Shown here piece by piece: positions 4,908 to 55,629 of a stretch of DNA of 64,000 bases. Position 1 is the stretch's first letter. Each line of letters opens with the position of its first letter. Both the position numbers and the translations under genes were made by a program. The stretch spans positions 140,342,001 through 140,406,000 of the forward strand of contig NC_084468.1 in NCBI RefSeq assembly GCF_027409185.1, given 5' to 3'. The notes under the pieces are model-generated. The model was not told where the DNA came from and did no database searches. It was given only the letters and a program-made list of their open reading frames with translations. Origin of the DNA: Cynocephalus volans (Eukaryota > Chordata > Mammalia > Dermoptera > Cynocephalidae).

Positions 4908-4924
4908 AAAAAATGTTTACTGTG

Positions 4925-5091
4925 GGCCAGCCCCATGGCTCACTCGGGAGAGTGCAGTGCTGGTAGTGCCGAGGCCGCGGGTTCGGATCCTATATAGGGA
5001 TGGCCGGTGCGCTCACTGGCTGAGCGTGGTGTGGGCCACACCATGCCGAGGGTTGCGATCCCCTTACAGGTCACAAAAAAAAAAAAAAAAA
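4925..5091 (+). mobile_element. CYN-type tRNA-derived SINE (composite) with TSD
   Basis: The element starts GGCCAGCCCCATGGCTCACTC and carries two tRNA-like units. Each ends in a B-box-like region (GGTTCGGATCC and GGTTGCGATCC), and a poly(A) tail follows at about 5075-5091. The imperfect direct repeat AAAAAATGTTTACTGTG (4908-4924) / AAAAAATGTTTAATGTG (5086-5102) is the target-site duplication. The units look like the tRNA-Ile-derived CYN SINEs reported from colugos. A 71-codon frame across it is not a gene. Confidence 0.85.
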
Positions 5092-5541: not shown

Positions 5542-5573
<32 letters not shown>

Positions 5574-5721
5574 TGACCGGTAAGGGGATCTTAACCCTTG
5601 ACTTGGTGTTGTCAGCACCACGCTCACCCAGTGAGCTAACCGGCCATCCCTATATGGGATCCGAACCCATGGCCTTGGTGCTATCAGCACCGCACTCTCC
5701 CGAGTGAGCCACGGGCCGGCC
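5542..5721 (-). mobile_element. CYN-type SINE (composite), antisense, with TSD
   Basis: A poly(T) run at 5542-5567 is followed by the complement of two tRNA-Ile-like units. Read on the minus strand, the head is GGCCGGCCCGTGGCTCAC, with GGTTCGGATCCCATATAGGG in the first unit. The flanking repeat CTTGAGGTGG at 5532-5541 and 5722-5731 is the TSD. Confidence 0.88.
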
Positions 5722-5732
5722 CTTGAGGTGGG

Positions 5733-10862: not shown

Positions 10863-11878
10863 AACATCAAACTGTAATTTTCTATAGTAATTTCACGGTT
10901 TCCTCTTTATTTACAGGAGAGATACATTCTAAGATTATTGAAAAGCAAAACCCAACAATACTATTTAGAAGATAAGCAAATATTTATAGATGAAATTCTT
11001 AATTATAGACAATTTAAGTGATATTTGGCCCCCCAAAGACTGGCATTTGGTATTTATTTTATGGCATAATTCCCAAGTAAGCCTTACCAACTACCAATAT
11101 TGTATTATCAATACCCTCAGAATATGCCAGCCAAGAAGTCAATATCCCAGGAGAACTTAGCCTTTCCCTTACTGAAACGATTTACCCAGACACCTCAGTG
11201 CCAGGCCTTTTCTTAGGCTGGGAAGTACCACCCAACTTCCAGACATCATCCTTCCCTTTTTCAGAGACAAGGAATTGTATCTGTATAAGACATATGTGTG
11301 GACCCACCACTTGTTACTACTCTCTCAAAATTTTCCTGGTCTCCATCAACATTATTTTTCTTGATCTTTTGTCTGAGTTGCACCATCACCTCTAGACCTC
11401 TGTTCCAACTCTTCAGGAGACTTTCTGTGATACCTTTGGCTGTGATGCCACTGTCCCTTGACTCTGATGTCAGTTTCATTCTCTTAACTTGTGGTACTTG
11501 CTTCTCTCATGTTGTAATGCTAATTCTCTTTGCTTTCTCCAACTTGTGACCTCATGCTTCCCTCCCTGCACCTGATCCACCGAAGTCTCTGGGTACATGC
11601 GCCATTTTGTCCTGACCAGTTTTTACTGCAATTCACCACCCAAGATCACCAGCTGTACATGAAAACACATGTTATATACAAGCTAGGAATTGTTCATATT
11701 CCCCGGGTAGGAAGATAATGGTCCTTTAAAACAAAATCAAATGTCTTTACTTCACATGCAAATAGGATTATCTGTGTAAGTAATTAAATGAGTAACTCAC
11801 TGAGAGACAACTTTTAAAAAATAAGTTAATAAAACCCAGAGAGAAAAACCAATGTGTCAAAGACAACAGAAAGTTAAA
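10863..11878. other. No recognised gene
   Basis: Intergenic. Pyrimidine-rich sequence at 11215-11560 creates overlapping frames of 60-83 codons on both strands, with no motif that would support a protein. Confidence 0.4.
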
Positions 11879-11989
11879 GTCAGCATGTATAAAACATATG
11901 GGTAAAAACCAAACAAGTCAGCATGTATAAAACATATGGGTAAAAACCAAACAAGTCAGCATGTATAAAACATATGGGTAAAAACCAAT
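11879..11989. repeat. 38-bp tandem repeat, about 2.9 copies
   Basis: Units start GTCAGCATGTATAAAACATA at 11879, 11917 and 11955 and are essentially identical. The last copy ends in AAAAACCAATGTG, and that string also occurs upstream at about 11845. Near-identity implies a recent duplication. Confidence 0.95.
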
Positions 11990-36522: not shown

Positions 36523-36561
36523 ATCGCTTCTCGGCCTTTTGGCTAAGATCAAGTGTAGTAT
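36523..36561 (+). pseudogene. RNU2: U2 snRNA retropseudogene, 3'-truncated and tailless
   Basis: ATCGCTTCTCGGCCTTTTGG starts at 36523 and continues through 'ctaagatcaagtgtagtat'. This is the exact 5' end of U2 snRNA for 39 nt, including the stem-loop I region and the start of the branch-site-recognition segment. It stops there with no poly(A) tail. The repeat AAATATGTGACT at 36511-36522 and 36562-36573 is a 12-bp TSD. The form matches the known class of 3'-truncated snRNA pseudogenes. It lacks the snRNA promoter and 3' box, so it is not expected to be expressed. Confidence 0.93.
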
Positions 36562-36573
36562 AAATATGTGACT

Positions 36574-37780
36574 ATTTGATGTGTTTGCAGTTGAACAAGT
36601 TGTGGAGAAGTCCCAACTTCACCACAGAAGGTGAAGAGCAATCTGTAAACGTGATAGGAATGAGGAGCTGCCAAAACCTGTCTTCAATAAGTTTTTTTGC
36701 AACCAGACTCAATTATGTGTTCTGTTTGTTTAGTCTCTGGAAGATAAAATAGCAGAGAAAATCCCTGTAGCTATTTCATGACATCCTAAAATGACCCATA
36801 GCCAGTTATCTGGGAAATAGTTTAGAAATTCCAGGAACTCAAACTCAAACTCCAGTAATTCTAAAAGAAGATTAAATGAGAAACAGGAGACACATTTTTG
36901 TTTTCACAACTAGGATTTCTTATTCCAACACCTTTTTAGTTCAGTAGCACAGCCTGAAGAGTGTTATTTCACAAGAAGGAAAGTAATATGACAAAACTGA
37001 TCTATCTTCACATAGCAAAATCATAAACTTAATTGCATAATATAAAATTTTTTAATGTTTGCATTTATGACTATCATGATAATAGTAGTTACATTTCATG
37101 TTCTTCAAAAAGCTCCACATAAAGCCTGACAGTAATCTCATTCAACTCCTATTAGTTAATAATTTATCTATTTGTCATTTGTCTTTTCCTCTGTCAATCT
37201 TTCTTTTCCTCTGCCTCCCCAACCTCATTCCCCAAAAAGGACATACTTCCCAATGCCCACTTTAGATGTGCCCATTTAAGATAAATGCAAAAGAAGAACC
37301 TTCTAGAGTGCAGAAAGAGGGCCACAGTGAAGGATGAATTGGGCAGTCCCTCCCAGAAAGTAGACTCGGCCTAATTAAGGAACATTTCCCCATCCTCAGG
37401 ATAGGGAAGTTCAGCTCCTCTGCCCAGCAGGACTTCAGAACTTCTACAGACAACTATCTGCAGTGTTTCCCCTAACCTTCCCCTTGTTAATGAGAATGCT
37501 TATTGCAGTTATTTCGCCCCTGTTTCACTATTGTGAGACATATATATTGAGGCAGATAGTTTGTCTTTTCAGTTTATAGATATTTAGTCAAGAGAACCCA
37601 CATCTAGACATCATATAGGAAGTACCTACCATCCGTCACTCAGCGACCTTGAACTGGGAGTCTGACACTGCGACTGGATAACTTCTGAAACGTCTTCCTT
37701 GGAAAAGAAGTTAATGTATTATGTACTAGAGGGGATCAGAAAGGAAGACTGAAGTTTTCATTAATGCTGTTCATTAGAAT
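36574..37780. other. No recognised feature
   Basis: Intergenic. Confidence 0.35.
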
Positions 37781-51561: not shown

Positions 51562-52569
51562 GAGTATTTTGTAGTTGCCTGGATTCATGGACATCTTTGG
51601 CTGTGTTTTTTTTTTCAGTATTCAGTAAAGTGGTTCAACACCTGATCCTCACAATATGAGGAAGTTATGATCCTGCAGGTTGCTGTAGTTATGGCCATTT
51701 AAACATAAAAATCTTACTTTCCAGATTTCAAATTGAAACATTATAGAGTAAAACATACAAATGGATAAGAATTGAAACTTTTTGATCAAAATGTATAAAT
51801 GTATGTGCTTGGATCTACTGAGAGAAATCAGATAAGCTGCCCTATAAAGCATTTTTGAAAGCTTTTATCTAGACCACATATTGCCAAGTATAAATTAATG
51901 AAAATGACTGATGAAGTTCTCAGATGCATGTCAGGCACTGGCTTCTGAGACAGAATTCAATCTGTCATTACCTTCACTCATAAAACCTCTGATCCTTGTC
52001 TTTGCTTTTTATCTTCTTCTCTCACCCTCTGTCGCGCACCCCAGGCTTTTGATATTTTAATAGGTTTTTCCCAGAGCAGGCTAGAAATGTTTGGTTCATT
52101 TTCAATAGTCCAGAAGATTTGCCATTTTTACTTTCCCAGTGGAGGCTGATTTGCTGGAAATTGCAAATCTGCCTCATGGTTTACAAATGTTCCCACTTTC
52201 TCACATATTTCAAACTTAGACAAGGTGACATCATCAGTCATGCTTTCTGTTAGCTTCTCTTAACCTCCACTTAACCTCCCTCTTTGTGTTAAGATCAAGA
52301 GAGGTGGCTAGTTTAGCTGAGTCATATTTAGATTTTTATTTCTGCCCTTCTAATTTCAGTCCTTACCCCTGATCTCATGAGCTTACAGCACAATTTAAGC
52401 TCTCTGGAAAGTAAGATTGTTTTTGTTTGTTGAAATTCAACAACTTTTCTCAAAAAGTAAACATTCATCCTCATTGTTGGCCTGAAATAATGTGGTAAGT
52501 TATTTGCCCATCAAATCATTTAACGGAAAAAAATCTGCACAAAGCTTTTGGTAATGCTGCTGGCTTTTA
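51562..52569. other. No recognised feature
   Basis: Intergenic; pre-integration flank of the ERV. Confidence 0.35.
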
Positions 52570-52574
52570 GACAT
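52570..52574. repeat. ERV target-site duplication, left copy (GACAT)
   Basis: GACAT immediately precedes TGTTGGG and is repeated at 55200-55204 immediately after CCCAACA. Confidence 0.85.
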
Positions 52575-52955
52575 TGTTGGGAAAATGGAATAATTTAATC
52601 AGGCCTCCTCGCCTTAGGGATGGTTGGGAGTGGTGCGGCAAATTCTTTGTAAGCAAATTATGGGGGAGGTGGAGTCAGTGCACATGTGTGGCACTGCCAT
52701 CTTGGCTGGCATCTACTGCCTCAGGCGTCCACCTAAGTGGCCATGCTCTCCAACCTATGGCTTCCAATGACCTCTTTGCCAGTTACCTAGCTCATAGACC
52801 TGTGTGTGAGGGGTCTGGTGACCCAGCCTGGCATGTGAAAGGTTTGTGTCCCAGTCTGTGAATAGGCTTGAGGGGTCTGTGAGCTCCACACTCAGCCCTA
52901 GCTTGAAAATTGGCCCAGTCAGCAGGATTACAGGCAGGTATAAGAGCTCAACAAT
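52575..52955 (+). mobile_element. Left LTR segment (U3 to TATA/cap region), sense
   Basis: This is the part of the LTR shared with the inverted right copy. It ends just past a TATA-like GTATAAGAG at 52938-52946, so it covers U3 and the start of R. The 95-codon frame at 52574-52861 is LTR read-through. Compared with the right copy it lacks one roughly 31-bp unit of the 'gtgacccagcctggcatgtg' type. Confidence 0.8.
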
Positions 52956-52994
52956 TGGTGTAGTCTGTGGCAGGCTTCTGAGCAGGTACAGGAG

Positions 52995-53258
52995 CCAAAA
53001 GCCCTTGGAAGAAGGAGGAAATGTGGCTACTTTCGAATATGCTCTGCCCTGTGGCCACCTTCCTGTTGATTGGCATCTGGTTGCTGCACACTATACTGCA
53101 AGGCAGCATAGACCAGGTACTACAATGCAAAACCCCTTGGGAGGGGGGGGAATGTGGCTGTCCTTGAGGGTGTGGTGCCCGGTGGCCACTTTTCTGCTGA
53201 CCAGAGCCTGGCTACTGTTAACTATGCTGCAAACTGATTGAGATTTGTGGCTGAAAGC
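52995..53258 (+). repeat. 132-bp tandem duplication in the ERV leader
   Basis: Two diverged units start near CCCTTGG at 53002 and 53134. Both contain 'atgtggct', 'gtggccac(c/t)tt', a 'cctg(g)tt/ctactg' block and 'ctatactgcaa/ctatgctgcaa'. They lie between the LTR segment and gag, and may belong to R/U5 or the leader. The primer-binding site could not be located with confidence. Confidence 0.7.
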
Positions 53259-54228
53259 AGAGTTGTTGGAAGTGCAGATAAATGTCCTGGAGTATGATAT
53301 GCAGCGACTGGCCACTCCTGCCTCTCACACCAGGGAAGACGACCAACCCAGTGGTGAGTTGGGGGAAACTGTGCATCTCCAGGACCAACCTGTTGTGCAT
53401 GAGAAACTGAAAGACAAGCAGCCTATGGGACCAGATGGACAACTGGTAGGCAATCCACAGTTGACCCAGTTCACCACCTATGTCCCATATACCCAGGTTG
53501 AACTGGTTGACTTGGGAAGACAGTTCAGGCAGAAACATGGGGAGACCCTGGCTGCTTGGCTGTTGCAGTTATGGGACCTAGGGGTGGATAGTGTGATGTG
53601 CTCTGGTGAGGAGATGGAGAAGTTGGCCTGAAGCAGCGGCCTGAAGCAGCGGCTACAGAATAGCCACAGATATGCACAAGGACAAGGTAGTCATTCCTTG
53701 ATGGACTGGGTGAATGCAGCTGCCCAAACCATGTGGGCAAATGCTGGAGAACTGCCCGAGATTGTTAGTAAATGGCAAACATATGCTGAGCTGGTCCAAA
53801 TCATTCGGGAGCTGGGGATGCAGCAGTCCACGTTTAATATGAACACTTGTGGCCCGGACAATGAGAACTTTACAGGCAGCATGAGAGACATAGTGCTGCA
53901 AAATGCCCCGTCAACATCCTTTAGGTCACTGATGGCCATATTGGCCCCATACATTGGTCATCCTATACACTAGATAACAACCATGATAGCCAGCTTGGGT
54001 GAAGTTGAGGATAGAAGGCAAGCAAAAGGGGTCCGAAAGGTGGCTAAGACAAAACCCCCAAGAAATGCTTGGGATTTTATCCCAAAGGGACCAAGCAAGA
54101 CTAGCCGTAAGCAGATGTGGCTTGACTTGCTTGCAGCAGGAGTTGATAAAAAGAAAATTGACTGGCAGCCAAATGCAGCCCTGTTTGCCTTGTGGCAACA
54201 ATTGCTCCCTGAACAATTCACTCAGTGA
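53245..54228 (+). pseudogene. gag: Decayed retroviral gag
   Basis: One reading frame runs through three open pieces (53245-53631, 53632-53973 and 53974-54228), broken by in-frame stops at 53629-53631 (TGA) and 53971-53973 (TAG). The pieces are alpha-helical in composition, with capsid-like stretches such as WLLQLWDLGVDS and MRDIVLQNAPSTS, and end in a basic region with RKQMWLDLLAAGVDK. No CCHC zinc knuckle is visible, so nucleocapsid is missing or lost. A 13-bp tandem duplication (GCCTGAAGCAGCG, 53626-53638 and 53639-53651) sits exactly at the first stop. Gag is the structural precursor in retroviruses; this copy is dead. The gag assignment rests on position before protease and on general character. 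Confidence 0.7.
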
Positions 54229-54368
54229 ATTTTGAGGACTTTTTGGTTGCTCCCGAGGAGGCAGATGAACTGTTCCATTTTGATTAGGGAGTAGGCCAAG
54301 GTACTCGTCTTTTGGGGGCAGGCAAGGACTGGAGGCCTCACATTGAATTGGCAATGTAATGGTCGAGG

Positions 54369-54787
54369 ATGAATGTGCAGTGTGTTTTGGCATTGGTGGA
54401 TACAGGTGCAGAATGCAGCCTGATATATGGCAATCCAGATAAGTTTCCAGGGGCCACAGTTTGTATAGATGGTTGTGGAGGACATTCTACTGTGGTCAAA
54501 GCTGTGTCAGTGCCATTGGGCATAGGTAGATTACCTCCTCGTGTACATATTGTATATATGTCTCCTGTAGCTGAATACATCTTGGGTATGGATGTACTTT
54601 ATGGTTTGCACCTGCAAACAACATTTGGAGAGTTTTGGCTGCGAATACAGACAGTAAAGCCTGTGTTACAAGGATATGCTAAACATGACCCACAGGTGTT
54701 ACCCCAGCCAAGACGTGTGGTTAATGTAAAGCAGTATCGCCTACCAGGAAGACATGCAGAGATAAGTGCCACTATATTGGAATATAT
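54369..54787 (+). pseudogene. pro: Retroviral aspartic protease remnant with pol linker
   Basis: In a different frame from gag, about 140 uninterrupted codons carry the retropepsin active-site motif LVDTGAECSLI (DTG at residues 11-13) and the second conserved block ILGMDVL (residues 71-77). A QYRLP-type stretch follows at residues 122-126, as at the protease-RT boundary. The frame continues to 54983 only because it runs antisense into the inverted LTR. RT, RNase H and integrase are absent. Retropepsins process Gag and Pol; here no functional context remains. Confidence 0.85.
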
Positions 54788-55199
54788 TGTCATGCTCTTT
54801 TTTCTGCCCATAATCGTGCTTACTGGGCCAATTGCCAAGCTAGGGCTGGGTCTGGAGCTCACAGACCCCTCAAGGCTGTTCACGGACTGGGTCACAAACC
54901 CCTCACATGCCAGGCTGGGTCCCCAGACCTCTCACAGGCCAGGCTGGGTCACCAGACCCCTCACACGCAGGTCTATGAGCTAGGTAACTGGCAAACGGGT
55001 CCTTGGAAGCCGTAGGTCAGAGAGCATGGCTATGTGGATGGACACCTGAGTCAGTAGACACCAGCCAAGGTGGCAGTGCCATGCATGTGCACTGACTCCA
55101 CCCACACACACACAATTTGCTTACAAAGAATTTGCCGCACCACTCCCAACCGTCCCTAAGGCGAGGGGGCCTGATGAAATTATTCCATTTTTCCCAACA
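54788..55199 (-). mobile_element. Right LTR segment, inverted relative to the left one
   Basis: The reverse complement of 55199 to 54788 aligns with 52575-52955 from the first base (TGTTGGGAAA...). It runs through 'aatttgccgcacc' (complement), the GTGACCCAGCCTGG repeats and 'ttggcccagt(a/c)agca(c/g)g' to about the TATA/cap region, where homology stops and antisense-free pol begins. It is about 412 bp against 381 bp on the left, owing to one additional roughly 31-bp repeat unit. The TATA-like box of the left copy is altered to an A-run here. Confidence 0.85.
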
Positions 55200-55204
55200 G
55201 ACAT

Positions 55205-55308
55205 CATTTTTCAAAGTTATTGGCTAAGTATATGTAGAGTGTTTGATATTATTCCCACAGTCCATTATAGTCATTAACTAAGAGAAGCTATACAAAAAAA
55301 TTAAATAC
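55205..55308. other. ERV right flank
   Basis: Short unique flank. Confidence 0.3.
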
Positions 55309-55629
55309 AATCAGCCCTTTGTATCTGCAGATCCCACACCCATGATTCAGCCAATCATGGATCAAAAATATTTTAAAAAACCAAAATAAAAAAATAATGC
55401 AACAATACAAAAAGTACAAATAAACAATACAGCATAACAACTATCTATATAGCATTTACATTGTATTAGGTATTATAAGTAATCTAGAGATAATTTAAAG
55501 CATAAGGGAAGATGTGCATAGGTTATATGTAAAGACTATGCCATTTTATATCAGAGACTTGAGCACTGGCAGATTTTGTTATCCTTAGAGGTCCTGGAAC
55601 CAACCCCCACAGATATTGGTGGATGACTG
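55309..55629 (-). mobile_element. MER2-type Tigger element, antisense
   Basis: Plus-strand blocks 'cagccctttgtatctgcaga', 'acattgtattaggtattata', 'taatctagagataatttaaa', 'gtgcataggttatatgtaaa', 'aggtcctggaaccaaccccc' and terminal 'tggatgactg' are the complement of MER2, a nonautonomous Tigger/mariner DNA transposon. Both ends are present. Confidence 0.85.

Follow-up and report, generated by a model that had tools for sequence, protein, structure and literature searches.

How can a retroviral insertion come to carry its two LTRs in opposite orientation, with a U3 end at each outer edge, inside one target-site duplication? A normal provirus has LTRs in direct orientation, whereas those of the element described here, located in a 64-kb window (the whole stretch of DNA that was analysed), are inverted. 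We argue that the element derives from one retroviral DNA that was malformed before integration and then inserted through two U3 ends, a reading to which we give a probability of about 0.73.

Structure of the Locus

Self-comparison returned one strong inverted match, between 52575-52955 and 55199-54786, with 335 identical columns out of 414, three gaps and an E value of 3e-116 (table 1). The largest gap corresponds to a 29-bp tandem unit present twice in the right LTR and once in the left. Direct reading of positions 52400-55400 placed TGTTGGG at the left outer end, from 52575, and CCCAACA at the right one, up to 55199, with GACAT adjoining both; identical 5-mers at exactly these two places would be expected by chance about once in 1024. 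The first-pass annotation had described these ends, the flanking GACAT and LTR segments of roughly 380-410 bp in opposite orientation. The direct reading bore out the first two, and the dot-plot-type self-alignment found the inverted homology, the segments measuring 379 and 412 bp. Its further observation of U3 ends at both outer edges is also supported, and one target-site duplication encloses the whole element. The inverted two-LTR structure is thus confirmed as real. The chance that it was created by the assembly is negligible in our view: an artefact would hardly produce exact LTR ends beside a perfect 5-bp duplication, and mis-joining between the two LTRs is unlikely because they differ at 50 of 379 compared positions.

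Table 1. Coordinates, strand and basis of the features of the inverted-LTR element
Feature	Position	Strand	Basis
Target-site duplication, left copy GACAT	52570..52574	.	Direct reading
Left LTR, complete, 379 bp, sense, U3 end outward	52575..52953	+	Genome-wide LTR comparison
AT dinucleotide, then primer-binding-site-like stretch starting TGG	52954..52973	+	Layout similar in 13 other 5' LTRs
Leader and broken gag-like reading frames	52974..54228	+	Open frames; collinearity with L002 and L006
Protease and first RT residues; normal pol ends at 54783	54360..54783	+	Pfam RVP, E 5e-5
Inner junction ATAT: two filler bases and AT like an unprocessed U5 tip	54784..54787	.	pol/LTR comparison
Right LTR, complete, 412 bp, inverted; U5 inward, U3 outward; extra 29-bp unit (54895-54952)	54788..55199	-	Self-comparison; genome-wide LTR comparison; sister of left LTR in two trees
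Target-site duplication, right copy GACAT	55200..55204	.	Direct reading

The interior, in sense orientation, comprises gag-like ORFs, an aspartic protease and just the first residues of RT. The protease, matched by Pfam RVP, upholds one half of the earlier description of a sense gag-protease interior. The other half, gag, is assigned by position: the segment is collinear with two relatives that both open with a sense LTR, and the three gag-region pieces tried gave no Pfam match, so that we call it gag-like. A solved-structure search gave five marginal matches (E 0.59 to 0.83). The motif at the end of the protease segment, which has no Pfam match, we take to be the RT start. The leader contains a direct repeat of ~106 bp (52996-53101 and 53128-53232, 69% identical), each copy with ATGTGGCT.

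RT_RNaseH_2, RT_RNaseH and RNase_H domains were found in ORF pieces of one relative (L074). No integrase domain was matched in nine ORF pieces of L018 and L074, and no Pfam match to a tyrosine recombinase was obtained in four pieces from the window and nine from relatives, which sample part of the family only. Scans of viral contigs with the protease and with an LTR 26-mer detected no relatives.

The remainder of the window contains several other features. Two inverted copies of a tRNA-like SINE lie at 4924-5091 and 5551-5722, and part of one of them (5572-5646, minus strand) was called a tRNA-Val gene; the SINE seems to resemble a composite SINE of colugos. A U2 snRNA match at 36523-36621 (46.9 bits against a family threshold of 46) is perhaps a pseudogene, and a unit of about 38 bp occurs in three tandem copies at 11877-11988.

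Extent of the Repeated Unit

The first-pass annotation held that homology of the inverted copy stops at about the TATA/cap site, so that only U3 and the beginning of R would be repeated. The other family members in the 2.81-Gb genome containing the window lead to a different delimitation. The left LTR used as query gave 4956 first-look candidates, the best 40 of which were scored; the 39 other copies among these are 84-87% identical to it, and in 33 of them the alignment reaches position 379-381 of the 381-base query. With the right LTR as query, the 39 other best-scored copies were 82-86% identical and about 397-417 bp long. Nearly all printed LTRs open with TGTTGGGAAA or a near variant and close with CA, and the TATAAGAG pointed out in the annotation lies near the 3' end of the LTR. 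Solo-like LTRs have an exact 5-bp duplication in 15 of 25 cases and one with a single mismatch in 6 of 25.

The borders with internal sequence are equally regular. In 5' LTRs the terminal CA is followed by AT in 11 of 14 copies, the window's own included (10 of 13 others), and those two bases are followed in all 14, again with the window's, by TGG, which is primer-binding-site-like. On the other side, the polypurine tract AAGGGGTGGAT precedes the six 3' LTRs found, and with up to two mismatches allowed its junction with U3 was counted 1538 times genome-wide, compared with 7 hits for the control. Measured against these family borders, both window copies are whole LTRs, of 379 and 412 bp. On these alignments, the inverted repeat is a whole LTR that ends at the U5/primer-binding-site border: it is complete to the U5 tip, without a primer-binding site, and the shorter extent proposed earlier does not hold.

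Normal Copies of the Family

Thirteen stretches downstream of 5' LTRs were taken, one of which lay on the wrong side, leaving 12. Six of these contain a 3' LTR, in every case direct, as the annotation had stated for normal proviruses, and in every case after a polypurine tract; the other six had no LTR in either orientation. The 5-bp duplication is exact in four of the six proviruses (L047/L074, L051/L076, L061/L079 and L068/L080) and matches at 4 of 5 bases in L006/L070, while the 3' LTR of L048/L075 is truncated. Three pol loci (L020, L030 and L037) likewise have a nearby LTR in direct orientation.

The possibility that other copies share the inverted junction was also checked. Among the best 40 matches to an inner-junction query, the locus itself alone spans the junction and the rest hit either the pol side or the LTR side; as only these 40 were scored, rarer or more diverged copies could escape. 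A non-systematic look in the same genome found no second U3-U3 integrant. When the genome was searched for palindromic U5-to-U5 junctions, 8 sites turned up, compared with 2 in the control, none of them an exact match; one of the 8 that was inspected, on C18, was rejected as not being an LTR. The locus is a real, unusual single integrant, and no new kind of element.

Relationship of the Two LTRs

Trees were built from 51 LTRs, chosen as the best scorers against the left LTR, the right LTR or the junction. The two LTRs of the window form an exclusive pair both with FastTree (support 0.92) and with IQ-TREE (SH-aLRT 90.7, bootstrap 95). As exclusive pairs, the six normal provirus pairs were recovered in one case of six in the first tree and in four of six in the second, and some unrelated LTRs also pair with support in IQ-TREE (SH-aLRT/bootstrap 85.3/95 for L043/L050 and 73.1/96 for L062/L065).

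Identity between the left and right LTRs is 0.868, within the range of the six normal pairs (0.841-0.905). For 1268 background pairs the median is 0.840, and the identity of the two window LTRs is equalled or exceeded in 104 of them. By raw identity among the LTRs compared, the nearest to the left LTR is L041 (0.875), followed by the right LTR, and the nearest to the right LTR is the left one. The two have four rare variants in common, a number reached by 16 of the 1268 background pairs, which are not independent of each other; within the six normal pairs the corresponding numbers are 0, 4, 2, 1, 2 and 9. The K2P distance of 0.147 falls between the extremes of the normal pairs (0.104-0.184) and, at an assumed rate of 2.2e-9 substitutions per site and year, corresponds roughly to an age of ~33 million years.

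The unequal number of 29-bp units might be taken as a sign of separate origins. We rejected this argument, for a single 29-bp gap separates four of the six normal provirus pairs, and a fifth pair differs by 57 bp. This suggests that the unit has been gained or lost frequently, and LTRs with one and with two units are both common in the family. These differences concern L006/L070, L048/L075, L051/L076, L061/L079 and L068/L080.

Given their sister position in both trees and a similarity like that of normal pairs, the two LTRs probably share an origin in one virus or provirus. Their sister position supports a single reverse transcription, short of proof.

Inner Junction

A pattern search caught 22 other loci, in which pol runs on with TTAG (e.g., ACTATATTGGAATTAGAGAAAGTTGG). 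In the window, ACTATATTGGAAT is followed by ATAT and then by TGTCATGCTC, which belongs to the inverted LTR, so that the layout is GGAAT-ATAT-TG where those loci have TTAG. The AT beside the inverted LTR is the dinucleotide that integrase processing would take off a free U5 end, a match with a chance of 1 in 16. At its inner end the inverted LTR goes beyond CA by these two bases and lacks a following primer-binding site. Judged by these bases, the inner junction is unlike an integrase product: CA joined directly to unchanged target, as expected after self-attack or nested insertion, is not what the locus has. The inverted piece has a natural U5 tip inside and a natural U3 tip outside, as would be expected of free LTR-length viral DNA.

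The alteration of pol before the LTR argues both against the integration of an LTR into pol and against an attack of the viral DNA on itself. In the first case, nested or neighbouring insertions would have been independent events, the inverted LTR having come from another copy with a later deletion, and GACAT being matched by chance or preserved by a deletion through CAACA. The family does have thousands of LTR candidates, LTRs with one and two 29-bp units are both common, and unrelated LTRs also pair with support. Integration into pol, however, would leave an intact GGAATTAGA beside the LTR end, not the GGAATATAT observed. Because this junction, the sister position of the LTRs in two trees and the low odds of a chance duplication (about 1 in 1024) point the same way, independent insertions are quite improbable.

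In the second case, the U5 end would have attacked the pol region of its own molecule, and the inverted product would have been inserted later. Retroviral DNA is known to undergo such autointegration (PMC2644782). Integrase, however, would join the processed CA straight to an unchanged target; the locus has ATAT in between and a pol that is altered before the joint. Moreover, the usual product of autointegration is a circle, which also counts against it, and we consider this origin very improbable.

A DNA Probably Malformed before Integration

The reading we favour is that the viral DNA was malformed before integration; both this timing and the enzyme responsible are inferred. One partner would have been a truncated left part, consisting of the LTR, primer-binding site, gag, pro and RT start. 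Its right end, broken off or still being extended, would have become attached to a second, inverted and complete LTR, at the U5 tip of the latter. In the simplest route, the growing plus strand would have stalled in the RT region and switched, end to end, to the 3' terminus of a displaced plus-strand strong-stop DNA that ended at the U5 tip. Copying of this template would then have proceeded to its 5' terminus, where U3 borders the polypurine tract. Cellular end joining of an LTR fragment might have given the same product. The resulting linear DNA would have had two natural U3 ends, permitting normal insertion by integrase with a 5-bp target duplication.

The general idea of a DNA malformed before integration and inserted through two U3 ends was already contained in the first-pass annotation and is supported, while the detailed route has been changed and is put forward tentatively. 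As an example of such an error, the annotation had plus-strand strong-stop DNA jump onto pol RNA at about the TATA/cap site, which does not agree with an inverted copy that is a whole LTR. Priming on pol RNA is also awkward because the genomic RNA starts at R and cannot supply the complete left U3, and a DNA strand would seem better suited as the jump partner. The strand jump has a difficulty of its own: the last bases of plus-strand strong-stop DNA are normally copied from the tRNA, and no such tail is present at the inner LTR end in the window. That the locus is a germ-line fossil of two-U3-end integration in which the plus strand switched to free strong-stop DNA without such a tail is therefore put forward tentatively, at slightly less than even odds.

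A normal provirus at GACAT might instead have been rearranged later in the germ line. Replication could have switched from pol into the reversed 3' LTR and returned to the right flank via CAACA, or the 3' LTR could have flipped between its short terminal inverted repeats, with pol deleted up to the LTR. Such events would leave GACAT duplicated and the two LTRs sister to each other, and the TGTTG/CAACA shared by the left LTR tips would offer 5 bp of microhomology at the outer junction. Nevertheless, one break would be required no more than about 2-4 bases away from the U5 tip, and a second precisely at the U3 tip. Furthermore, flipped 3' LTRs are at background in the genome: a reversed LTR end directly after the polypurine tract was matched 48 times against 34 in the control (up to two mismatches, none exact), compared with 1538 against 7 for the normal order. 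We therefore regard later rearrangement as rather unlikely.

Comparison with Known Systems

The element and its relatives have features of vertebrate retroviruses and other LTR retroelements with a DDE integrase: LTRs of the TG...CA type with a fixed short duplication, together with protease and RT/RNase H. Class III (ERVL) elements are characterised by a tRNA-Leu primer-binding site. ERVL-type elements such as MuERV-L likewise have 5-bp target duplications. In MuERV-L the tRNA-derived end of the strong-stop DNA is irregular toward extra sequence (PMC5930517), whereas in the window sequence is missing and an LTR is inverted.

Complex LTR insertions with a single duplication have been ascribed to template switching (Sabot and Schulman 2007, PMC1950507). 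The likeness lies in a malformed element with one target-site duplication and outer LTRs that are closely related. The elements of Sabot and Schulman, however, have a third, internal LTR common to two core sequences, while the present one has two opposed LTRs and a truncated internal region.

Inverted terminal LTRs are found in DIRS-type retrotransposons (PMC5633606). These elements differ in using a tyrosine recombinase and circular intermediates; inverted LTRs are not the norm in the family of the window, whose members have direct LTRs and 5-bp target duplications. DIRS elements are not known to have an integrase-type target duplication.

Significance of the Integrant

Most of what is known of aberrant reverse-transcription products comes from DNA that had not integrated, in cultured cells. 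Among the titles and abstract openings listed in our literature search, in which few subscription journals were covered, no integrated U3-U3 provirus appeared, an absence of little weight; PMC11054761 and PMC12789967 contributed nothing decisive. If the strand-switch reading is true, viral DNAs bounded by U3 on either side arise in vivo and can serve integrase as substrates. An inherited integrant, with its duplication intact and a datable pair of LTRs, would show that such a molecule can survive to integration. It would also provide a search image, inverted sister LTRs within one target duplication, by which such errors may be counted across genomes.
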